Assembly: GCA_902785855.1 (NCBI GenBank)
Contig: CADAAJ010000019.1
Span: 1-42,689, forward strand
From: an uncultured Methanobrevibacter sp.
GTDB taxonomy: Archaea; Methanobacteriota; Methanobacteria; Methanobacteriales; Methanobacteriaceae
DNA length: 42,689 bases
Reading direction: 5' to 3'
This document shows positions 25,224-42,592 of the stretch, in pieces (within the stretch, counting starts at the first letter, position 1; every line of letters starts with the position of its first letter). Position numbers and translations under genes: made by a program. The notes beneath the pieces were generated by a model. It saw only the letters and a list, made by a program, of their open reading frames with translations. It did no database searches and had not been told where the DNA came from.

Positions 25224-25246
25224 AAGTAGATAAATATTATCTACTT
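25224..25246 (-). terminator. Stop-codon-spanning hairpin terminator, adhesin copy A
   Basis: On the minus strand AAGTAGATA pairs perfectly with TATCTACTT across a 5-nt loop, and C plus a T6 run follows. The TAG stop codon lies inside the first stem arm. An identical hairpin ends the paralogous gene (28554-28576). Confidence 0.6.
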
Positions 25247-28200
25247 AACTTTAACAATTGTTTTTACTAAATTTTTAAGGTATGACACTTTTACAGCATA
25301 TTTTTTACCTTTTTTGAGTTTTTTAATAACATTCTTTTTGATGGTTACTTGTGCAATTCCATTTTTAGAAGTTTTTGCCTTGTAAGTTTTTCCTTTGAAT
25401 TTGAATGTTATTTTTTTGCCTTTAACAGCCTTACCGTTGATTTTAAGAGAAGCTTTTAACTTAAATTTCTTAGCAGTCTTTTTAACAGTTACTTTTTTAG
25501 TCTTCAAGACGATTTTATCAGCAACAGCATTTACTGTAACTGTATTATTGTATGTCTTACCATTATAAATAGTTGTTATTACATAAGTTCCTGCTTTTTG
25601 AGTTATTTGAATTTTAGCTACTCCATCAGCATCAGTTACAGCAGATATTGTTTTACCATTAATAGTAAAGTTAACAACCGCACCCGCACCAACAGCATGA
25701 CCATCATCAGTTACAACCTGAACAGTAAAGTAAGAACCACTACCATAATCAACAATGATATCCTTATTGTTAATGATTTTACTGTTATCAGCAACAGTGT
25801 ATACTTTTAAAACAGAGATTACTCCTTCATTATAAGAATCCATAAAAGGTGACCCATCAATAGAAACAAATGAAATATTATGTGTATAATGTGTTCTCAT
25901 ATCGTTAAGCTTCATGAACGGTATATTTTTTGTGGTTATTACTGCTTTGAATACATCACCTTCTTTAATTGGGACGTATTCGTTTAATTTGATAGTATGG
26001 TAACCAATATATGGAGTCACTCCATTTTGAGTTAGTTTTAATTCATCATTTACATAGATCTCAACAGTGTATTTATCACCACTTTCCTTGAAGAATGTTC
26101 CAACAGCAGCAATTAAATCATCATCCAATGCTTCAAACACATTCATATAGCTTACAGTTTCTCCACCAGATAAGAAACTGCCATCCCATCCAATAACATA
26201 TTGATAATTTTTATTGTATGGAACGGTATTTTCAAGAATTACTGTAGTAGCATATCCAGTAAAATCACCTGGTTCACCTTGTAGGAATGATTTGTCATAA
26301 TATGAAACATATAAATATCCATTTTGCCCCCAATTAGGACCCCAACTGTTTTTCACAATCCATGCACCATCACCTGGAGGTCGGGTTAAGAAATTTTCTT
26401 TTGAGAAATTGTCATCCCATCCCACAACTATTACACCATGATTTTGCTGTTTAGGCACATCAACATACTGTGCATATGTTTCAGGATTATAATACAAACT
26501 TACTTCATCATATTGGGATTGTCCATAATAAGACACAAATATAGAACCATATTTCATGATTGCTTCTTTAAGTTTTGTGCCATTAGGTATTTCATCATTA
26601 GCTATAAATATCACATCTTGAACATGAATGTTTTTAGTAGTTGTGATTACTGGTGAAATTTTCCCCATTTCATCATATGAATCCATATTTTCTGTAAACG
26701 CTCCAAGCCAACTCAATAAGTAACTTGCTGCAGCAGTGTTTAATCCACCTTCCTCTTGAAAAGTAAGACCATAAATTGAATATTTTAACATGGAATCTTG
26801 CATGTTATTTTCTGAAAGGTCTGTTCTTATTCCTGTAACTCTTAATAATGCGGATTCTAATGCTCCTATCATTCCAAAAGTCCAGCAGGAACCCATCCAT
26901 CCTTGTTCTTTAATTGAGGAAACCCATCCCCAGTCATATGAATTGTATCTGTATGGGAGATTATTGACATTAATTGTGTTATTAATCAATGTTAATTCCA
27001 GACCTTCCCCAACAATTATTGTTGCATAAAATGTATTATTGGTTGATATATTGTTGTCATTAATGAAAATATTTGTTTCATCTATATTTGATTGTTTATC
27101 GAAAACAGAGTAAATAGGATTTGTATTGTTTTCAAAAATTGAATTACTAATGGCGTATGCTGAATCACATGCATAAATTGCAGCACCCGCACTTGCATCG
27201 TTATTGAAGAATTTAGAACCAACAATATTATATGTACCTAAATCCAACAATATTGCACCCCCATAAGTTAAATCCGCTTCAATAATGCCCGCACCGTTTG
27301 AATCAAAAGTACAATTATTGATTACTCCATTTACATATGAAAGATAAACTGATCCTCCATTGTAATTTGCACGGCCGTTTATAAACTCTGTATTATTTAG
27401 GAATAAATCTCCACCTAATTGAAGGAATGCTCCACCAAAAGCAGAATAGGTATCCTTAAATATTGAATCCAATATAGTCACATTACCTCCATTTCCATCT
27501 CCAGCAATATCTGCATAAACTGCACCGGCATTTTTAGAGGAAGTAGTATTTATGAATTCACAATTTTTGATATATACCTCACCGCCGAACCTAATACCTA
27601 TAGCACCTGCAGTAATATTCGCTTTCAAATTATTGAATTTAGAATTGATTATTGAAGTTTTAGAACCTCTAACATATAATGCAGGAGAATATGAAGAACT
27701 GGTGTTTGCAAAAGTTGAGTTTTCTATGTAAAGTGTTGAGTTTTTAAGAGCAGCAATTTGAGAATACTTATTGAAGATTTTTGAACTTAACTCTGCATTG
27801 TAAAGATATAATTCACCTTTCTTTATGTATATTGCTGAACCCGCTTCTGCATAATTGTCTATAAATTTGGAATTGCTGCAGGTAATAGTTACATCACTAT
27901 AAAGTCCCACAGCTCCCCCTTCCATTTTTGCATAGTTGTTTATGAATGTGACATTATTCAATGTTAATGAACCTGTAGAATATATTGCTCCACCTTTTTC
28001 AGCATTACCTCCAGTTAAAATCAGATTGCTTAATGTTACGTTGTTTGCAGTAATGTTGAATATTCTTGATTGATTGTTTCCATCAATTGTACGGCCATTA
28101 CCATTAAGTATAAAATTATCCTTAATAATAACAATTCCATTTTTATTATCAGTTTCGTTGTTGAATTTGTAGTCGTGAGTTAAATTAACGACATCTTTTC

Positions 28201-28435
28201 CATCTATTTCTTCAGTCAAGTTGGTGAATGAATATTCATTTTCTGAATATAAATTATTCTGAGTTGTTTTAAGAATATCTGTACTGTCATCAGTTGTGAT
28301 ATCCTCTTGAACTGTTTTTAATATTTCTTTACTGCCATCGCATATTGCATCATCGGAGATGTTTTCTGCTGCACACACAGCACCTACCGACATGATTAAA
28401 ATAAGCATGACAATCAAAATCTTTAATGCCTTCAT
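25241..28435 (-). CDS. Secreted adhesin-like protein: beta-helix + papain-like (C1) peptidase + Ig-like + Lys-rich module, copy A
   Basis: 1,064 residues. A signal peptide (1-~25, ending VCAAE) is followed by right-handed beta-helix repeats (~60-480; recurring NVTFINNYAKMEGGAV-like coils). A papain-family C1 domain (~495-790) has Q511, C517 (QGWMGSCWTF), H666 (NHGVIVVGWDD) and N696 (VKNSWGPNWG). An Ig-like domain (~880-970) and a ~90-residue Lys-rich C-terminal module, shared by many methanogen adhesin-like proteins, follow. All catalytic residues are present, so it is probably an active surface cysteine peptidase that acts on, or anchors at, the pseudomurein wall (inference). A GTG three codons upstream is part of the ribosome binding site; ATG 28435 is preferred. 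It is in tandem with a paralogue (copy B). Confidence 0.88.
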   Translation of the reverse strand: MKALKILIVMLILIMSVGAVCAAENISDDAICDGSKEILKTVQEDITTDDSTDILKTTQNNLYSENEYSFTNLTEEIDGKDVVNLTHDYKFNNETDNKNGIVIIKDNFILNGNGRTIDGNNQSRIFNITANNVTLSNLILTGGNAEKGGAIYSTGSLTLNNVTFINNYAKMEGGAVGLYSDVTITCSNSKFIDNYAEAGSAIYIKKGELYLYNAELSSKIFNKYSQIAALKNSTLYIENSTFANTSSSYSPALYVRGSKTSIINSKFNNLKANITAGAIGIRFGGEVYIKNCEFINTTSSKNAGAVYADIAGDGNGGNVTILDSIFKDTYSAFGGAFLQLGGDLFLNNTEFINGRANYNGGSVYLSYVNGVINNCTFDSNGAGIIEADLTYGGAILLDLGTYNIVGSKFFNNDASAGAAIYACDSAYAISNSIFENNTNPIYSVFDKQSNIDETNIFINDNNISTNNTFYATIIVGEGLELTLINNTINVNNLPYRYNSYDWGWVSSIKEQGWMGSCWTFGMIGALESALLRVTGIRTDLSENNMQDSMLKYSIYGLTFQEEGGLNTAAASYLLSWLGAFTENMDSYDEMGKISPVITTTKNIHVQDVIFIANDEIPNGTKLKEAIMKYGSIFVSYYGQSQYDEVSLYYNPETYAQYVDVPKQQNHGVIVVGWDDNFSKENFLTRPPGDGAWIVKNSWGPNWGQNGYLYVSYYDKSFLQGEPGDFTGYATTVILENTVPYNKNYQYVIGWDGSFLSGGETVSYMNVFEALDDDLIAAVGTFFKESGDKYTVEIYVNDELKLTQNGVTPYIGYHTIKLNEYVPIKEGDVFKAVITTKNIPFMKLNDMRTHYTHNISFVSIDGSPFMDSYNEGVISVLKVYTVADNSKIINNKDIIVDYGSGSYFTVQVVTDDGHAVGAGAVVNFTINGKTISAVTDADGVAKIQITQKAGTYVITTIYNGKTYNNTVTVNAVADKIVLKTKKVTVKKTAKKFKLKASLKINGKAVKGKKITFKFKGKTYKAKTSKNGIAQVTIKKNVIKKLKKGKKYAVKVSYLKNLVKTIVKVK

Positions 28436-28553
28436 AATTATCACATGATAAATTTATGTAAAAATTTAATATTTAAGCGTTTATATTTAGTTTTTGATTG
28501 TTTTAAAAAAAGATTATTGAGAACTGAGGCAAAATTATAAAATAAATAAAAAG

Positions 28554-28576
28554 AAGTAGATAAATATTATCTACTT
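28554..28576 (-). terminator. Stop-codon-spanning hairpin terminator, adhesin copy B
   Basis: Same 9-bp stem and 5-nt loop as at 25224-25246, with the TAG stop codon inside the first arm and a T-rich run after it. The identity with copy A extends into the 3' end of the gene, consistent with duplication or gene conversion. Confidence 0.6.
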
Positions 28577-31500
28577 GACTTTAACGATTGTTTTTACTGT
28601 GTTTTTAAGGTATGACACTTTTACAGCGTATTTTTTACCTTTTTTGAGCTTTTTGATAACATTCTTTTTGATGGTTACTTGTGCAATTCCTTTTTTAGAA
28701 GTTTTTGCCTTGTAAGTTTTTCCTTTGAATTTGAATGTTATTTTTTTGCCTTTAACAGCCTTACCGTTGATTTTAAGAGAAGCTTTTAGTTTGAACTTTT
28801 TAGCGGTACTTTTGACTGTTACTTTTTTAGTCTTCAAGACGATTTTATCTGCAACAGCTTTTACTGTAATGGTGTTGTTGTATGTCTTGCCATTATATGT
28901 GGTTGTTATCACATAGGTTCCTGCCTTTTGAGTTATTTGAATTTTAGCTGTTCCATTAGCGTCAGTTACAGCAGATACTGTTTTACCGTTGATTGTGAAA
29001 TTAACAACAGCACCCGAACCGACAGCATGACCGTCAGCAGTTACAACCTGAACAGAGAAGTATTTACCACTATTATAATCAACAGTAATGTTTTCATTGT
29101 TGATTATTTTACTGTCATCTGCAACAGTATAAACTTTTAAACAAGTGATATAACCTAAATCATATGCATCTTTCCATGTTTTTCCGTCAAATGAAACAAA
29201 TGAAATGTTTTGAGTATAATGCACCCTAGTATCCTCTAAAAGAAGGTAGGGTACCCAATTTGATGTTATTACTGCTTTGAAGACATCACCTTTTTTAACT
29301 GGTACATAATTACCTAATTTGATAGTGTGATAACCAACATATGGAGATACGCCCTCTTGAGTCAATTTTAATTCATCGTTTACAAAAATTTTGACTGTAT
29401 AACTTACACCACTCTCATTGAAGTATGTTCCAACACCCGCAATCAAATCATCATCCAATGCTTCAAAGACATTCATATAACTTATAGTTCCATTACTTTG
29501 TGCAAAATTAGAAAGCCATGTAATGTCATATTGATAGTTTTTATTGTATGGTACAGTATTTTCAATTATTGTAGCGACAGCATAATCAGTGACCTTACCT
29601 GGTTTATATTTCAGAAGTGCTTTGTCATAATATGAAACATATAAATATCCATTGTCTCCCCATTCAGAACCATAACTGTTTTTGATAATCCATGCCCCAT
29701 TACCTGGAGGAGTGATTAAGAATTTTTCTTTTGGAAAATTATCGTCCCATCCTATAATTGATACTTCATGGTTTGCAGTTTCAGGCAAATCAGTATATTG
29801 GGCATGGGTTTTCGGATTATAATACTCAGCTTCATCATCATATGAAGATTGTCCGAAAAAGGACACATCCAAAGACCCATATTTCAGAATTGCCAGTTTT
29901 ATTTGTGTACCATTAGGGATTTCATTATTAGGTATGAATATCACATCTTGAACATGAATATTTCTGCCTGTTATAATTGGTTCTGTAAGTTTTCCAACCT
30001 CATCATAAGTGTCTGCACCATAGGGGATTGCTCCAAACCAACTTAATAAATAACCTACAGAAGCAAGATTAGCTCCTCCTTCAAATACTTCTAAAGCACC
30101 ATAAGGAGAATATTTCATGACAGTTTTCATGTTATTCATAGAAATATTAAATCCAAAATCTGTAGCTTTTAATAATGCTGATTCTAATGCGGATGACATT
30201 CCGAATGTCCAACAGGCTCCCATCCAACCCTGATTTCTAACTGGTGATACCCATCCCCAGTCACGTAAATCAAATTTGCTTGGAATAGCATCAACATTAA
30301 TAGTATTATTACCCAGAGTCAACTGCATACCTTCTCCAACCATTATTGTTGCATAGAATGTGTTATTAGTTGAAACAGTGTCATTATTGAAAACATTGTT
30401 TGCATCTATATTGAATTTTTTAGTAAAGACGCTGAAAATAGCATTTGTATTGTTTTTAAATGTTGAACCATTAATGCTAAATGAAGTATCATATGCATAA
30501 ATTGCATTTCCTGCACTTGCAACATTATTGAAAAACTTAGAGTCAGTTATATTTAATGTAGACATATCCGAAAATATTGCCCCACCATAATAGGAATAAT
30601 TTTCAATTATACCAACACCATTTGACTCAAAAGTACAATTGTTGATTTGACTTTCTGTAAATGAAAGGTAAATTGCACCTCCATTAAACATAGCATGACT
30701 GTTTATGAATTCTGTATTGTTAATCCAAAATTGTCCTCCCAATTGAATATATGCTCCACCAAATTCAGAATATGTGTTCTTAAATATACTATCAACAATT
30801 GTCACATTACCAACATTACCTGGAGAATATCCTGTAATATCCACATGAATAGAACCTGCATTTTTAGAAGATGTAGTATTTATAAATTCACAATTGCTAA
30901 TGTAAACTTCACCACCTTCTCTAAGGCTCATTGCCCCTGCAGTAATATTAGCTTTTAAATTAATGAATTTAGAATTAATTATTCTAATTTTAGAACCTAC
31001 CAGATATATTGCCGGAGAATATGCGGCAGTAGTATTGGCAAAGGTAATGTTTTCAAGATAAAATTGAGAATCTACAGAACCCATGATTTGCCCTGCTTTA
31101 GCAATAATTTTTGAAGTAATATAAGTATTATAAATATTTAGTTTTCCTTTCACAACTACAATTGATGATCCTCCTTCGCCAGCATAATTGTCAATAAATT
31201 GAGAATTGTTACAATTAGTAGTTACATTTTCATAGACTGCTACAGCACCACCATTTTTACTTGCATAGTTGCTAATAAAAGTTACATTGTTTAATGTTAA
31301 TGGTCCTGAAGAATATATTGCCCCTCCTTTTTCGGCATTACCTCCAGTTAAAATCAGATTGCTTAATGTTACATTTTTTGCAGTAATGTTGAATATTCTT
31401 GATTGATTTTTTCCATCAATTGTATTGCCATTACCATTAAGTACAAAATTATCCTTAGCAATAACAATTCCATTTTTGTTATCTGTTCCATTATTAAAAG

Positions 31501-31726
31501 CATAGTTCTGATTTAAATCTAAAGACTTACCAGTATTTTTTATTTCATCATCCAAGTTACTAAATGAATTTTCACCAGCCATATAAACATTATTATCCGT
31601 AATTTCTAAAGGAGTATCATCCTCATTTGAGACAACATCTTCAGAAATGGTGTCAGTTGCATTAACCGCACCAATCATAAGAATAGCCAGAATTAAACAT
31701 ACAATAAAGACATATTTAAACTTCAT
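28571..31726 (-). CDS. Secreted adhesin-like protein: beta-helix + papain-like (C1) peptidase + Ig-like + Lys-rich module, copy B
   Basis: 1,051 residues with the same domain order as copy A: signal peptide (1-~23, ending AVNA), beta-helix repeats (~60-470), a C1 peptidase domain with C505 (QGWMGACWTF), H653 (NHEVSIIGWDD) and N683 (IKNSYGSEWG), an Ig-like domain and a Lys-rich C-terminus. The active-site spacing (148 and 30 residues) is almost the same as in copy A (149 and 30). The final 91 residues differ at only three positions, whereas the peptidase and beta-helix parts are clearly diverged. It has its own promoter (TATA-like sequence around 31745-31760), so the two genes need not be one operon. 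A surface role in adhesion or peptide processing is inferred. Confidence 0.88.
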   Translation of the reverse strand: MKFKYVFIVCLILAILMIGAVNATDTISEDVVSNEDDTPLEITDNNVYMAGENSFSNLDDEIKNTGKSLDLNQNYAFNNGTDNKNGIVIAKDNFVLNGNGNTIDGKNQSRIFNITAKNVTLSNLILTGGNAEKGGAIYSSGPLTLNNVTFISNYASKNGGAVAVYENVTTNCNNSQFIDNYAGEGGSSIVVVKGKLNIYNTYITSKIIAKAGQIMGSVDSQFYLENITFANTTAAYSPAIYLVGSKIRIINSKFINLKANITAGAMSLREGGEVYISNCEFINTTSSKNAGSIHVDITGYSPGNVGNVTIVDSIFKNTYSEFGGAYIQLGGQFWINNTEFINSHAMFNGGAIYLSFTESQINNCTFESNGVGIIENYSYYGGAIFSDMSTLNITDSKFFNNVASAGNAIYAYDTSFSINGSTFKNNTNAIFSVFTKKFNIDANNVFNNDTVSTNNTFYATIMVGEGMQLTLGNNTINVDAIPSKFDLRDWGWVSPVRNQGWMGACWTFGMSSALESALLKATDFGFNISMNNMKTVMKYSPYGALEVFEGGANLASVGYLLSWFGAIPYGADTYDEVGKLTEPIITGRNIHVQDVIFIPNNEIPNGTQIKLAILKYGSLDVSFFGQSSYDDEAEYYNPKTHAQYTDLPETANHEVSIIGWDDNFPKEKFLITPPGNGAWIIKNSYGSEWGDNGYLYVSYYDKALLKYKPGKVTDYAVATIIENTVPYNKNYQYDITWLSNFAQSNGTISYMNVFEALDDDLIAGVGTYFNESGVSYTVKIFVNDELKLTQEGVSPYVGYHTIKLGNYVPVKKGDVFKAVITSNWVPYLLLEDTRVHYTQNISFVSFDGKTWKDAYDLGYITCLKVYTVADDSKIINNENITVDYNSGKYFSVQVVTADGHAVGSGAVVNFTINGKTVSAVTDANGTAKIQITQKAGTYVITTTYNGKTYNNTITVKAVADKIVLKTKKVTVKSTAKKFKLKASLKINGKAVKGKKITFKFKGKTYKAKTSKKGIAQVTIKKNVIKKLKKGKKYAVKVSYLKNTVKTIVKVK

Positions 31727-36313: not shown

Positions 36314-36654
36314 GCAAGAACACCCCGACCTCTTAGGTCAGGGATGAATTGCACTGTAAGGGAAGGGTATACTATATTATAATGGGTATTGGTTTCTTTT
36401 TTTTATTTTTTTATGCTTGTTTTGAATGTTAAGTGGTATTTTTTTAACTTGGTATACTTTTTTTCTCGAATGAATTATTTTTTTCTATATATGTTTTTTT
36501 GGGATATTGGATCATCATTTGTTTTTTTATGTTTTGTTGGGTATTACTCGTCAAATGCTCTTGGTATTTCTTTATATATGGTGTATGGTTAATATTTTAT
36601 TGTAACTCTACTTTGAGTTAATATAAAATGGTTCAATTGGTGATTTATTTTATT

Positions 36655-37890
36655 ATGAATGTTGTTAATAAGAATTTAGAAGTTAGGATTTATCCATCTA
36701 AAGTGGATAAGAATGATAAAGGTGAAAAGATTGCTAGTTTGGATAGTATTTTGTCTAATATTGGTATTTCTAGATTTATCTTTAACCAGGAACTGGCTTT
36801 TATTAATAATTTCAGACGTTTATTAGTTGAAAATGGCTATGAAGACAGAGTAATTGTTAATAATTCATCTTGTAACTGTATTTTAAAGATGTTAAAAAAC
36901 GATTATTCTTTTATGGAAAAAGCCGAGTCCAGCAGCCGCCAACAATCACAAAGAGACATTATTACAGCATTCAAACGATACCATAATCCAAATTTAAAGT
37001 CCAATTATCCAAGATTTAAAAAAAAGAAAGACAATAAAGGATCATTTAGAATAATAAATAATAACAATAATATTCGCATTCAAAAGAATAAATATGGACA
37101 TGATAAAATAAAATTAGCCAAATTAGGATTAGTAAAATTTAAAACCAGCAAAAAATACAAAGAACTACTACACAAAGCAACAAACAAAAATGACCAAACA
37201 GCAAAAATCAACCACATAACCATTAAAAAAGAAAACAACAAATATTACGCTGTTTTTAACATAGAATGCATACACACACCACATAAAATAATAGGCCCAA
37301 AACAACAAATAGGAATAGATATCGGATGCGGAAAACTAGCTGTTCTTTCCAACAAACAAGAAATACCCAATCTTAATTTAACCAAAGAAACAGAAAAAAT
37401 CATCCACTATACTAAAATAATGAGCCACACCAGAAAAAACTCAAACAGATACCAAAAAGCAAAAAAACTCTACCAAAAATGGATGAAAAAACTAGTAAAC
37501 AAAAGAAACGACTACTATAACAAAATAACAAGTTATATTGTTCAAAATTCCTCTTTTATAGCAGTACAAAACGAAAACATCATCGTATGGAAAAAAAATA
37601 AACATCTATCACACAACTTACAATTAAACGCCCCACGAACATTCATGGACAAAATAGAATACAAATGCAAATGGAATAATGTTCCATTCATTAAAGTACC
37701 TAAAAAATTCCCATCAACACAAATATGCAGCAACTGCAAAAAACAAAACACCAATATAAAAGGAATACAAAACATAGGAATAAGAACATGGAAATGTCAA
37801 AAATGCAATACCATACATGATAGAGATATAAATGCAAGTATTAATATCTTAAATGAAGGATTAAAAATCGTTGGGACAACGATGCAGTAA
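36655..37890 (+). CDS. tnpB: TnpB RNA-guided nuclease (IS605 accessory protein)
   Basis: 411 residues. The N-terminal wedge/REC-like part begins NLEVRIYPSK. The RuvC-I Asp is D222 (IGIDIGCGKL), a zinc ribbon has C358/C361 (CSNC) and C381/C384 (CQKC), and the RuvC-III Asp is D391 (DRDINASINIL). The RuvC-II segment reads FIAVQNENIIVW: the usual E-D-L position holds Gln, with the only nearby Glu two residues later (E307). TnpB proteins with displaced catalytic Glu are known, so it may still be active. The frame opens at 36628, but GGTGAT at ~36638 and the conserved N-terminus favour the ATG at 36655. No frameshift or stop is seen; the gene looks intact. Confidence 0.88.
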   Translation: MNVVNKNLEVRIYPSKVDKNDKGEKIASLDSILSNIGISRFIFNQELAFINNFRRLLVENGYEDRVIVNNSSCNCILKMLKNDYSFMEKAESSSRQQSQRDIITAFKRYHNPNLKSNYPRFKKKKDNKGSFRIINNNNNIRIQKNKYGHDKIKLAKLGLVKFKTSKKYKELLHKATNKNDQTAKINHITIKKENNKYYAVFNIECIHTPHKIIGPKQQIGIDIGCGKLAVLSNKQEIPNLNLTKETEKIIHYTKIMSHTRKNSNRYQKAKKLYQKWMKKLVNKRNDYYNKITSYIVQNSSFIAVQNENIIVWKKNKHLSHNLQLNAPRTFMDKIEYKCKWNNVPFIKVPKKFPSTQICSNCKKQNTNIKGIQNIGIRTWKCQKCNTIHDRDINASINILNEGLKIVGTTMQ

Positions 37891-38133: not shown

Positions 38134-39207
38134 ATGAATTTTCTAGCAGATAAAAAAGTTAATACTGGAAGACAAAAGGAGTTAGATATTGCAAAAGCAT
38201 TGGCAATCATTTTCATGATTTTTTGTCATGTAATAGTTTTTGCATCTTTTTCTAACATTTCAATTAGTCCAGGATTTGAAATGATTTTAAATCAGACTGC
38301 AGCAATCATTGCTGCACCTGTTTTCATGTTTTGTATGGGAATAGGCATTGTTTTCTCAAGACATAATCAATATAACATTCTCATTAAAAAAGGCGTGAAA
38401 TTATTGTTGCTTGGATATTTTGTAAATATTGGAGCACAAATACTCCCAAATGTTTTAGACAATATGTTAAACATGTCCAATACTCCAATTACAATATTGT
38501 CATTGTTTAAGGTCGATATTTTAATATTTGCTGGAATTGCATTCATACTTATTGGAATTCTTAAACTATTTAATATTTCTAATAAAAAAATGTTGATTCT
38601 GGCAATTGTATTTTCTATAATCGGAAGTTTTGTATGCTTTGTTGATTTTAATAATATCTTCTTAAATTATTTCTTCGGATATTTTATAGGAACCATTCTT
38701 CACCAATGTACCGCATTTCCATTATTCAATTGGTTTATCTTTCCAGTAGCAGGTATGGTTTATGGAAGTTATTTCATTAGAGTCAAAGACAAATCCCAGT
38801 TCTTTAAATTATGGCCTGTATTTTTAATTATTCCATTAATATTTATTCTTTGTAATTTATCCCCCTCACCCGCAGGATCTATCTCCGATAATGCACATGC
38901 ATATTTTATCACAACCCTTGATGCAATAGTACGTATAATTTTAATTCACGGTTTATTAGGTTTTTGTTGGAATATATCTAAATTTCTACCAGACCTACTC
39001 ATTAATGGATTTACAATGTTAAGTAAACACGTAACTGGAATTTATGTTGCTCAATGGTATTTTATCCCATTATTCATGACTTTTATCGAGTACTTTTATA
39101 AAGGCTTTGTATTCACTGATTTATCCATTACATTAATTAGCATATTTATATTAGGGATATCGACTCTTGCTGCACTTTTATATAGTAAATATAAACCAAC
39201 AAAATAG
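38134..39207 (+). CDS. Acyltransferase-3 / DUF1624-like multi-pass membrane acyltransferase
   Basis: 357 residues with about ten hydrophobic helices. The N-terminus RQKELDIAKALAIIFMIFCHVIVF carries the conserved (R/K)xxxLDxxKxxAIxxMxxxH signature of membrane acyltransferases (acyltransferase-3 and the related DUF1624/HGSNAT group), the His probably being catalytic. Such enzymes transfer acetyl or other acyl groups to surface glycans across the membrane. AGGATTT precedes the ATG. The gene is flanked on both sides by inverted copies of an IS605-type right end (37906-37964 and 39271-39326), which suggests a mobile history. The acceptor is unknown; cell-wall or surface polysaccharide modification is inferred. 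Confidence 0.83.
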   Translation: MNFLADKKVNTGRQKELDIAKALAIIFMIFCHVIVFASFSNISISPGFEMILNQTAAIIAAPVFMFCMGIGIVFSRHNQYNILIKKGVKLLLLGYFVNIGAQILPNVLDNMLNMSNTPITILSLFKVDILIFAGIAFILIGILKLFNISNKKMLILAIVFSIIGSFVCFVDFNNIFLNYFFGYFIGTILHQCTAFPLFNWFIFPVAGMVYGSYFIRVKDKSQFFKLWPVFLIIPLIFILCNLSPSPAGSISDNAHAYFITTLDAIVRIILIHGLLGFCWNISKFLPDLLINGFTMLSKHVTGIYVAQWYFIPLFMTFIEYFYKGFVFTDLSITLISIFILGISTLAALLYSKYKPTK

Positions 39208-39762: not shown

Positions 39763-41760
39763 ATGAAGAAATTCTTGAAGTATGTGTTAAGACCACATTG
39801 GAAACTTATTATCATTATAATTATATTGTCAGGATTTCAAACTTATTTTCAACTAGAAATCATTGATTTGTTTAATTCTGCTCTAAATTGTGTTAAACAA
39901 GAAAATATGGATTTGATTTTAAACATTGGGGAGGCAATGTTAGTTTACACAATGCTGTCAATGATTTGTATGCTGATTATTTCAGTAATTGCAACCAATG
40001 TATCTGCAAATTGTGCTTATGAAACCCGTAGAAATATTTTTCATATTCTGATGAATTTACCTTCTGAGGAGGTAGGCAAGTTTAAAATTACTGGCCTGAT
40101 GTCTAGAACTGCACGAGGTGTTTATACAGAACAGGGATTCATTGAAATGCTTTTAAAGAATGTTTTATTAATTCCTTTTGTAATAACTGGAATTACTATT
40201 TTGATTTTATTCATTCATATTCATTTTGCATTGATATTTGTTGCAGCCAATGCATTAATTTTTATAATTCTATTCTTTAAGATGAAAAAAGTTGTTGAAC
40301 TATATTTCAAAGCTAAAAAAACATATGGAAGAATAAATTCATTGTTTTTGGAAAGAATAACCGAAGTGAAAAATAATATTAAACATTCAAATAAAGAAGA
40401 TTTCAAGGACGCATGTGATGATTCCTATGACAAGAACATCAAATACCAATTAAACCAATATTATATTGCTCCAATCTTGTTTCTGATTTTGGATGGAATC
40501 ATACTAATTTTAATGGCAATGATTAGTTTAGGATATTCAATATGCATTGACACTGTGAATATTGTTGATTCAGTAGTTATTATCCAATATCTTGTGTATT
40601 TTGTAACAACATTGGCCTTCGTTCCAAAACTAATTTATAAATTTCCAAAGGCCTATGCTACTTCAGTACGTATTGAAGAAGTATTGGTTTTGGAAGATAA
40701 GATAGACACCAAAATTAAGAATAAAAAAATCAATTTTAAGAAATTTGAATTTAAAAATAGAAAATCCAGAAATTCTAGAAAAATCAGCAATATAGATAGA
40801 AGAGAAACCCGAAAAAAATTTGGGCTTTTATTATCAAACTACCGCTTTAAATTTATCTTTTCATTTATATTACTTACGATTTCAACATTATGTATAGTTT
40901 ATGCCCCAAAGGTTGTCGGAAACATTGTTAACCTATTTACCAATGGAAATACTGTTGTTGAACATGAAGTTATATTTACAAACATTCTCTTATTGGCCAT
41001 TTTGTATATTGTAGGTTATCTATTGCAGGCATATTCTAATAGGATTATGATATTTATCGCTGAAAAGATAACTTATAACCTAAGAATTCAAATGTATGAT
41101 AAGTTAAAAAACTCAAAGATAATTAATGAAAAGTCTGAAGGTAATATTTTAAGCAGAATAAATAATGATTTGGTAAATGTTAGGGATTTCATTATGGTTC
41201 ATGCTTCAGAAATTTTCGCACAACTTTTAAGCATTACTCTAGTACTTATATTAATCTGGACAACTGACTGGAGATTGAGCATAATTTATTTCATCGCAGT
41301 CCCAATATATGCTATCTGCTTTTATCATTTTGATGCCAACTCAAAGAAATCTTATGAAGTTCATCAAGAGCTCCTAGGAAATCTAATGGGATTTAAAAGA
41401 GATTGCCTTGAAAATCATGAATTGATTAGATTAAAAAATCAACAGGAAAATGTTGAAAGTGACTTTAAAACTATTAATTTTGAAATTAAAAACAAATATA
41501 CCTCATCACGATATCATTCCGGATTAATGTCACCACTTGCAACTTTCTTAACAAATTTGCGTAATATCATAGTGTACATCTGCGGCATCTATCTTTTGAT
41601 GAATGGTGAAATTCAGTTAGGTACCTTATTGACGATTATCATTTATGGAAAATTATTGACAACACCTATTAAAAAATTGACTGCATCATTAACTTCTGTT
41701 CAAACATCATATTCAAGTGTTAAACGTGTTTTTGAAGTTATTGAAAACTATGATGAATAA
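39763..41760 (+). CDS. Tandem ABC-exporter transmembrane domains without nucleotide-binding domains
   Basis: 665 residues. Residues ~1-310 form one type IV ABC exporter membrane domain (YETRRNIFHILMNLP, then a cytoplasmic coupling region) ending SVRIEEVLVLED. Residues ~354-662 form a second (EKITYNLRIQMYDKLKNSKI; RINNDLVNVRDF; SYSSVKRVFEVIENYDE), each with about six helices. ATPase domains normally follow each of these ends, but there is no Walker A, signature motif or Walker B. The first is replaced by a 40-residue basic linker (312-351) that begins like an ATPase domain (FEFKN) and breaks off; the second ends at the domain boundary with a stop. No ATPase gene is nearby. It may be a remnant of two fused half-transporters or a repurposed membrane protein; 665 open codons favour selection. 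Confidence 0.85.
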   Translation: MKKFLKYVLRPHWKLIIIIIILSGFQTYFQLEIIDLFNSALNCVKQENMDLILNIGEAMLVYTMLSMICMLIISVIATNVSANCAYETRRNIFHILMNLPSEEVGKFKITGLMSRTARGVYTEQGFIEMLLKNVLLIPFVITGITILILFIHIHFALIFVAANALIFIILFFKMKKVVELYFKAKKTYGRINSLFLERITEVKNNIKHSNKEDFKDACDDSYDKNIKYQLNQYYIAPILFLILDGIILILMAMISLGYSICIDTVNIVDSVVIIQYLVYFVTTLAFVPKLIYKFPKAYATSVRIEEVLVLEDKIDTKIKNKKINFKKFEFKNRKSRNSRKISNIDRRETRKKFGLLLSNYRFKFIFSFILLTISTLCIVYAPKVVGNIVNLFTNGNTVVEHEVIFTNILLLAILYIVGYLLQAYSNRIMIFIAEKITYNLRIQMYDKLKNSKIINEKSEGNILSRINNDLVNVRDFIMVHASEIFAQLLSITLVLILIWTTDWRLSIIYFIAVPIYAICFYHFDANSKKSYEVHQELLGNLMGFKRDCLENHELIRLKNQQENVESDFKTINFEIKNKYTSSRYHSGLMSPLATFLTNLRNIIVYICGIYLLMNGEIQLGTLLTIIIYGKLLTTPIKKLTASLTSVQTSYSSVKRVFEVIENYDE

Positions 41761-41791
41761 TAATATTCAAAAACCAAAAAAAGAAAATTAA

Positions 41792-41811
41792 AAGAGATTA
41801 TATAATCTCTT
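41792..41811. terminator. Palindromic terminator shared by the ABC-TMD gene and the adhesin remnant
   Basis: AAGAGATTATATAATCTCTT is a perfect 20-bp palindrome with T-rich sequence on both sides (TTTTAATTTTCTTTTTTT on the minus strand; TCTATTTTT on the plus strand). It sits where the minus-strand adhesin stop codon would have been, like the hairpins of the intact adhesins. Confidence 0.5.
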
Positions 41812-41814
41812 CTA

Positions 41815-42271
41815 TTTTTAACTGTTAATTTTACATTAACTGCTGCCTTGTTGAAGAATTTGTTTCCAGCAAATGTAATTGTTGCTTGATGTTTACCCTT
41901 TTGGTTAATTTTTTAAAGGTTGAATTTAGCTTTACAATTTTTAGTGTTTGAGGCATATTTTTTACCTTTAACATTTAAGGTAACTTTAACTTTGTTGATT
42001 ACCTTTTCAGATTTTGATTTAATGGTTACAGTGTATTTTTTAGATTTTTTGACTTTGAATACTTTCTTTTTAGCAGCAAATTTACTTGTTTCCTTGATGA
42101 TTTTGATGGTTGCAGTTGCACCGGATGCCTTGTATGCATCATCGCCTGCAAAAATGACTGTAACTTTTAAAGATTCTGTTTTTGTTGCTTTCAATGTAAT
42201 GTTACAACAACCTGATCGTTGATGGATGCCTTGTAGGTAGCACCATTGAAGTTGATTGTAATTCTCTGGTT
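41815..42271 (-). pseudogene. C-terminal remnant of an adhesin-like protein
   Basis: On the minus strand the fragments read, in order, NQRITINFNGATYKASINDQ; then, after a 5-nt duplication that shifts the frame, ATKTESLKVTVIFAGDDAYK, SGATATIKIIKE and the Lys-rich FAAKKKVFKVKKSKKYTVTI stretch. After another frameshift they continue KGKHQATITFAGNKFFNKAAVNVKLTVK, the usual end of methanogen adhesin-like proteins. The longest uninterrupted piece is 93 codons (41913-42194). Several frameshifts, no N-terminus and a lost stop make it a relic of a third adhesin gene, of a different subtype from copies A and B. Confidence 0.75.
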
Positions 42272-42592
42272 ACAACATCAAAAGAGCTTATCAATACATC
42301 AGGGCTTGCAGTATTAACTATTTATCTAAATGGGAATGATTATCCATGTATACTGGTGTAAAGATGAATTCAAACATTAAAATTTTCCTTTTTTCTTTTT
42401 AATAACTACTTTTAACAAATAATTAATCAATGACAGTCAATAATTATCCCATAACAATTAATACAAACAAAACTCGATATTACATCTAAAATCAGTGAAG
42501 TAATTGATGTTGAAAATGGAATAATCTCCATTTTTTCAAAGCATTCCACATCTACCATTGTTTTCAATGAAAACGAATCATGCCTATTGAAA
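41842..42592. repeat. Long dispersed repeat, copy 2 (fuller copy)
   Basis: 751 bp matching 35361-35814 in direct orientation, with an extra ~295 bp (41903-42197) holding most of the adhesin remnant. Shared landmarks in order include CTGCCTTGTTGAAG, AATGTTACAACAACC, GATGCCTTGTAGGTA, ATCCATGTATACTGGTGTAA and AAAGCATTCCACATC. Beyond the shared part, copy 2 continues into a transposase fragment and copy 1 into unrelated AT-rich DNA. Confidence 0.75.

Follow-up and report, generated by a model that had tools for sequence, protein, structure and literature searches.

What does an exporter do when no ATPase domain is left to drive it? The question is raised by an open reading frame at 39763-41760 (+) in a stretch of DNA of 42.7 kb from an uncultured Methanobrevibacter sp. 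(the window). The frame has an ATG start, is open throughout and comprises 665 codons, coding for 665 aa.

Architecture and surroundings of the window gene

Two ABC_membrane (PF00664) stretches are recognized by Pfam in the window protein (E 5.4e-37). ABC_tran (PF00005) is absent from all 665 residues at E<=0.1. The absence is no detection failure, because the degenerate ABC_tran domains of relatives are detected with the same library (38.8-83.5 bits; canonical domain, 98.5 bits). The initial annotation had described two exporter membrane domains without an ATPase domain, the second half stopping at RVFEVIENYDE and a stop codon. Both statements are confirmed by Pfam and translation; the stop codon is TAA.

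First exporter membrane domain a TM287-like half, residues 1-312 (39763..40698, +; translation, ABC_membrane stretches), ending at SVRIEEVLVLED (residues 301-312); its helices lie within residues 2-307 of the AF2 model. A basic linker, residues 313-345 (40699..40797, +), stands by alignment in place of ATPase domain 1 and is modelled with low confidence (pLDDT <50 at residues 305-344). The linker contains the scar FEFKN, residues 328-332 (40744..40758, +), which corresponds to the first strand of ATPase domain 1 in a 32-row junction table. Second exporter membrane domain a TM288-like half, residues 346-665 (40798..41757, +; translation, Pfam, profile match). It ends with RVFEVIENYDE at the expected start of ATPase domain 2, and the TAA (41758..41760, +; translation) follows at this membrane/ATPase domain boundary.

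The AF2 model, built on a 32-row alignment, reaches pLDDT 77.9 and pTM 0.78, and its linker lacks order; the model of the paralogue from the same genome is poorer (pLDDT 69.4, pTM 0.67). Among the matches listed, whole exporters are matched over residues 1-665 (Z 24.9-28.6, rmsd 3.3-8.8 A). A six-helix exporter membrane domain is thus present twice, as seen in the PF00664 stretches, the model and the structural matches. SbmA is not among the best 50 rows of Foldseek or VIA-align, which carries no evidential weight.

Upstream of the gene is a 555-base gap, then a gene at 38134-39207 (+) for an Acyltransferase-3/HGSNAT-like membrane protein. Another member of its cluster occurs near the ATPase-less gene in L061, and L109 contains frames whose start resembles this protein. 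A TnpB/IS605 OrfB-like gene of 420 aa is found at 36628-37890 (+), and two ORFs of >1000 residues each at 25241-28444 and 28571-31726 (-). The downstream sequence is AT-rich, and its opposite strand carries an adhesin-like repeat frame; the repeat sequence at 41790-42400 (-) is apparently a remnant. Within the window, no ATPase frame is present in the 0.9 kb 3' of the gene.

Descent from a half-transporter gene pair

ATPase-less proteins of at least 640 residues number 34, in 29 of the 138 genomes of the window's family (Methanobacteriaceae), the two of the window genome included. Matches were obtained in 103 of the 138 genomes, many of them to ATPase-bearing exporters. An ORF from the fetched loci was counted as a member if it had at least 640 residues, with >600 of them aligned. 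With lengths of 643-687 residues and alignment to the window protein from one end to the other, all 34 lack the space for an ATPase domain; Pfam was run on two of them, and the remaining members were judged by length and alignment. Three members (L053, L054, L066) reach a contig end. The second ATPase-less protein of the window genome is 47% identical to the window protein. No full-length ATPase-less match outside the window's family is among the matches listed in E-value-sorted profile searches of 150 (order) and 151 (phylum) genomes, two sets that overlap almost wholly and say little of other phyla. A contig search gave four loci, all of them from Methanobrevibacter MAGs or uncultured isolates.

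The nearest relatives of these proteins are adjacent gene pairs in which each gene codes for a membrane domain and an ATPase domain. In alignments, the upstream gene of a pair corresponds to half 1 and the downstream gene to half 2; the reversed order is found in none of the pairs listed, 21 pairs having been retained for analysis by selection on this very order. Against solved structures, the family profile matches the TM288 chain over residues 354-661 (E 8e-36), the best solved match for half 2, and the TM287 chain over residues 3-322 (E 1e-14). Half 1 scores slightly better on the chains of another heterodimer, 9kwi/8wcw (E 4e-16, best stretch 16-205). By sequence, heterodimeric exporters, not SbmA/BacA, supply the nearest solved chains.

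In a quick tree of both membrane domains (61 rows), all 34 members form one clade (SH-aLRT 96). A more careful tree has 49 rows and includes 22 of the 34 members, 12 near-duplicates having been left out; its support for the ATPase-less clade is 99/98. The following branches are each supported at 100/99: gene pair L075 as sister of the ATPase-less clade, the larger clade of both with 15 further pairs, and the branch that separates 11 canonical pairs from this larger clade. The program warned of long branches in this tree, L075 among them. Grouping of the 15 further pairs as one group has a support of just 71/29.

The scar is common to all ATPase-less members among the 32 rows of the junction alignment. 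The window lineage has it as FEFKN or FEFNN, other members as IEI; IEFRN/IEFNN is the counterpart in the gene pairs. In the ATPase-less members a short stretch follows, then sequence resembling the N-terminus of the second gene. The simplest reading of a common scar would be a single deletion-fusion event. Gene order and trees agree on the descent of both halves from a TM287/288-type pair; that the ancestor was a heterodimeric exporter gene pair, with both ATPase domains since gone, is very probable from these comparisons. The initial annotation had proposed loss of the first ATPase domain from two adjacent half-transporter genes, with a linker beginning like an ATPase domain (FEFKN). Gene pairs and trees bear out the former, the alignment with IEFRN/IEFNN the latter.

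ATPase domains of the pairs differ between the two branches. The 11 canonical pairs retain Walker A, DEA and the H-loop histidine (AHR) in the second domain and carry the customary degenerate site (DD, Q) in the first. Exporters with the catalytic glutamate replaced in one site are known, with TM287/288, TmrAB, ABCB2/B3, ABCC7 and others named in the excerpted source (PMC7756269). The canonical pairs of the window's family have the same replacement in one site. Unlike these, all 15 intact pairs in the branch with the ATPase-less clade lack the catalytic glutamate and the H-loop histidine in either domain (dead pairs: L061, L069, L079-L086, L089, L092, L093; two pairs in tandem in each of L079 and L085). 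Their second domain has DN, DY, NY or EN where canonical pairs have DEA, and Walker A is missing in 9 of the 15; the first domain has DN, no histidine, and the signature is gone. Further pairs, in G018, G110, G111, G112 and others, were left out of this set. A frameshift, possibly an assembly error, interrupts the first ATPase domain of L075 (G063), and Walker A, signature and Walker B of the second are all altered. ABC_tran bit scores of the second gene are 98.5 in L078 (canonical), 70.1 in L075, 65.9 in L085, 54.0 in L080 and 38.8 in L083. Decay of the ATPase is graded, yet without strict order along the tree, because the nearest pair, L075, outscores the second genes of more distant dead pairs. 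The initial annotation did not predict that some relatives would retain their ATPase domains in a dead state.

Dead ATPase domains have dN/dS of 0.10-0.33 (20 domain comparisons), about the same level as the membrane domains of these pairs (0.10-0.46). Canonical ATPase domains give 0.03-0.04 or no value, dS being saturated, and the dead domains may be less constrained than the living ones. By this measure the dead domains are under purifying selection, hence no junk. A non-hydrolytic function probably preceded deletion of the ATPase domains, because values of 0.10-0.33 are found in domains already dead. By sequence, the ancestral half-transporter pair lacked a catalytic site in both ATPase domains. 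In one descendant line, a deletion that began immediately behind the first strand of ATPase domain 1 and reached the next gene fused both genes; ATPase domain 2 was deleted at its boundary, and purifying selection has retained the fused ATPase-less product.

Function and energy source

The protein is considered, with moderate confidence and by analogy, to be an ATP-independent, ion-coupled or facilitative exporter; we infer its energy source and substrate. The 12-helix body would still form an alternating-access cavity. The fused protein would need no ATP: it would be either a secondary exporter, coupled to protons or sodium, or a facilitative one, and its substrates may be small amphipathic or toxic compounds. 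Methanogens also maintain a sodium gradient. Acidic, largely clade-specific residues are E32 (31 of 34 members), D35 (33 of 34) and D524 (33 of 34), candidate protonatable residues whose position and depth in the membrane are a guess from hydropathy.

Precedents exist. In the excerpted text of PMC13316013, SbmA is proton driven, has neither ATPase nor coupling helices and is proposed to descend from an ABC exporter, the derivation of SbmA/BacA being worded as speculation; SLiPTs are described there as having lost the coupling helices along with the ATPase. Experimentally stripped of its ATPase domain, MsbA effluxes ethidium along with a pH gradient and without ATP (PMC4979069).

SbmA/BacA (SLiPT) and the window family have in common an exporter-fold membrane domain without ATPase and a proposed descent from ABC exporters. 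Unlike SbmA/BacA, a dimer of separate chains, the window protein is one fused chain; it has no SbmA/BacA Pfam match at E<=0.1. The ancestor of its family is a heterodimer pair, not YddA; the family is archaeal, has no evident glutamate ladder, and its dead-ATPase relatives are extant. TM287/288-type heterodimers are alike in the membrane domains, which are matched by the family profile, and in that canonical relatives in the same archaea show one degenerate site. They are unlike in that the window protein lacks both ATPase domains and has its halves fused within 665 residues. MsbA-MD and LmrA-MD are likewise ABC-exporter membrane domains acting without ATPase, but are laboratory truncations, whereas the window family is natural, fused and selected. 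No prior description of the ATPase-less family was found in open-licence literature; the SbmA and MsbA/LmrA precedents are among the matches listed.

Some observations stand against an ATP-independent exporter. No convincing glutamate ladder like that of SbmA was found, clade-specific acidic membrane residues being few and their depth taken from hydropathy; and the intracellular loops, though shortened, are as conserved as the helices. Intracellular loops dock the ATPase domains in exporters. ICL1 of TMD1, residues 91-122 (40033..40128, +; entropy, model), is kept and strongly conserved; its entropy of 0.44 bits is the lowest of 16 regions, and the model has a short coupling-type helix at 101-104. 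ICL2 of TMD1, residues 204-214 (40372..40404, +; gap columns, DSSP), is 4 residues shorter than in the gene pairs, one of the four columns being missing in 34 of 34 members and three in the window lineage only; no coupling helix is assigned by DSSP in the model. ICL1 of TMD2, residues 449-461 (41107..41145, +; gap columns, model), has lost 2 residues, a shortening confined to the window lineage, and is poorly ordered in the model. ICL2 of TMD2, residues 538-565 (41374..41457, +; gap columns), has its full length in the window protein, with a short helix retained at 552-557 of the model; 8 of its columns are present in the window lineage and missing in 32 of the 34 members (filled in 6% of rows). 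An outer loop of TMD2 has 3 further missing columns. Columns were counted as missing when filled in >=80% of gene pairs and lacking in ATPase-less members. Linker and C-terminus aside, they lie mostly in intracellular loops; three of the four such loops have deletions across the clade, never all three in one protein. Relaxed constraint was expected in the coupling loops and is not found within the clade, where their entropy is as low as elsewhere; there are deletions only. This conservation speaks against a simple loss-of-constraint reading and could be the sign of a bound partner.

A bound partner belongs to the main rival explanation, by which the protein is a non-transporting receptor, sensor or scaffold whose membrane body binds a ligand or partner, much as SUR regulates a channel. 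It is rather unlikely. Strong conservation of intracellular loops that have no ATPase to contact agrees with it. SUR is among the best structural matches; a common fold proves no function. TetR-type genes occur in 8 of 41 ATPase-less loci vs 0 of 22 loci of ATPase-bearing relatives, and one lies divergently beside the paralogue of the window genome; genes of one MFS cluster occur in 18 of 41 vs 1 of 22, and fit export rather than sensing. Both contrasts are inflated, the MFS and TetR queries having been drawn from the ATPase-less loci. The 41 loci include broken copies and the window itself; the 22 exclude L094, itself ATPase-less. A regulatory or scaffolding role is further disfavoured by the neighbourhood, in which no gene family recurs beside most copies. 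MFS and TetR neighbours together fit a role in export or stress. Sigma-70 promoter-like sites are at background (23 vs 20.2 in shuffles), archaeal promoters lying outside the model. In the part seen of a lauric-acid transcriptome of M. ruminantium, no gene is linkable to the ATPase-less gene.

The initial annotation had also raised the option of a transporter driven in trans, in which a separate subunit would supply the ATPase. The window genome gives this no support, deletions in the coupling loops disfavour it, and it is judged quite improbable. Separately encoded ATPase and membrane parts do occur in some ABC families, with YddA examples in the excerpted text of PMC13316013. The window genome has 24 ABC_tran matches, of which 19, in 14 loci, were inspected; these have a permease next to them or belong to double-ATPase proteins that lack membrane helices, with exceptions on contigs C9 and C14. 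On C9 (L121:2849-4412) are two importer-type ABC ATPase genes without an adjoining permease, a possible source of trans drive; the gene on C14 is SufC-like. The remaining five matches are in frames of 599, 964 and 919 residues. No exporter half-transporter with an ATPase was found in this assembly, which is 95% complete, nor among the inspected matches. ATP is therefore unlikely as the direct energy source, if the protein transports.

Neighbouring ATPases were sought by blastp with 18 ABC-ATPase queries against the 41 ATPase-less loci. ABC-ATPase-like neighbours are confined to five loci: L032 has a single such gene, L047 has two fragments, and there are pairs in L055 (canonical), L061 and L069 (both dead); the L032 gene (L032:1944-2696), ~5 kb upstream of the 93% identical relative of the window gene, would suit a subunit acting in trans. 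No ABC ATPase recurs as a neighbour across these loci, and a partner ATPase next door is accordingly improbable. ATPase genes directly upstream of three copies (L047, L050, L057) could also be cited for trans drive; they are of AAA_14/DUF4143 type, not ABC (Pfam on the L047 gene).

If an ATP-independent exporter is the correct reading, the family may be a second natural conversion of an ABC exporter to an ATP-independent transporter: archaeal, from a heterodimer, possibly sodium- or proton-driven and with its steps visible. This is put forward tentatively. The visible steps would begin with a one-site exporter, pass through ATPase domains that are dead yet selected, and end in a fused protein without ATPase. 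SbmA/BacA have supposedly crossed the line between primary (ATP-driven) and secondary (ion-driven) transporters, with intermediates inferred (PMC13316013). The window family is set apart by a different ancestor, by fusion and by surviving relatives with dead ATPase domains. Extant, selected relatives in apparent intermediate states make the abandonment of ATP directly testable, a single archaeal family providing canonical, dead-ATPase and ATPase-less proteins for comparison. For annotators, the gene name 'ABC transporter' in rumen methanogens may hide an ATP-independent protein.

Selection, broken copies and a shared block

Selection on the ATPase-less gene was estimated with an NG86 script. 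The 45 least diverged of 496 comparisons were taken, from 32 members, and three with almost no synonymous change were dropped. The remaining 42 close comparisons, not independent of each other, give dN/dS of 0.085-0.43. Window gene and 93% relative give 0.24 over the whole gene and 0.47 in ICL2 of TMD2; linker and ICL2 of TMD1 have replacement changes and zero synonymous changes between the two, so that no ratio results. The earlier argument from the open frame against simple decay is upheld by values well below 1.

A decaying relic of a transporter, open by chance, is highly improbable. Broken copies (G048:C7, G048:C44, G049:C11, G049:C76, G053:C54, G070:C17, G075:C24) and fragments (G007, G040) are what a pseudogene would leave, and they mark the function as dispensable, because several genomes have them. 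The dN/dS near 1 across orthologues named beforehand as the sign of a pseudogene is not seen (0.085-0.43), nor is an ATPase domain downstream in a relative with a recent nonsense mutation here, the members aligning end to end at 643-687 residues. Retention of 34 members in 29 genomes at dN/dS well below 1, the 0.24 of the window gene included, also opposes decay. An assembly artefact, or an ATPase domain missed through a frameshift, has a negligible probability: the window assembly is fragmented (137 contigs), but many assemblies, the single-contig genomes G019 and G039 among them, share this architecture and scar, and no ATPase frame follows in the 0.9 kb 3' of the gene. Pseudogene and assembly error are both ruled out by recurrence in 29 genomes, two of them single-contig, together with dN/dS.

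A block of ~6.2 kb with the ATPase-less gene is shared at 99.8-99.98% identity by three genomes of two genus codes, with different flanks (L059:6193-12490, L058:6367-12564, L056:6030-12227). Between L058 and L056, the block and a neighbouring 6.4-kb segment are in swapped order. The identity of the block points to recent transfer or recombination. Degenerate repeats of a small ORF are present at one end of the block and inside it in L056 (6031-6184, 8323-8474, 10894-10960) and at both block ends in L059. An 87-aa ORF related to these repeats adjoins the paralogue (L049:10587-10850). The degenerate repeats may be recombination sites.
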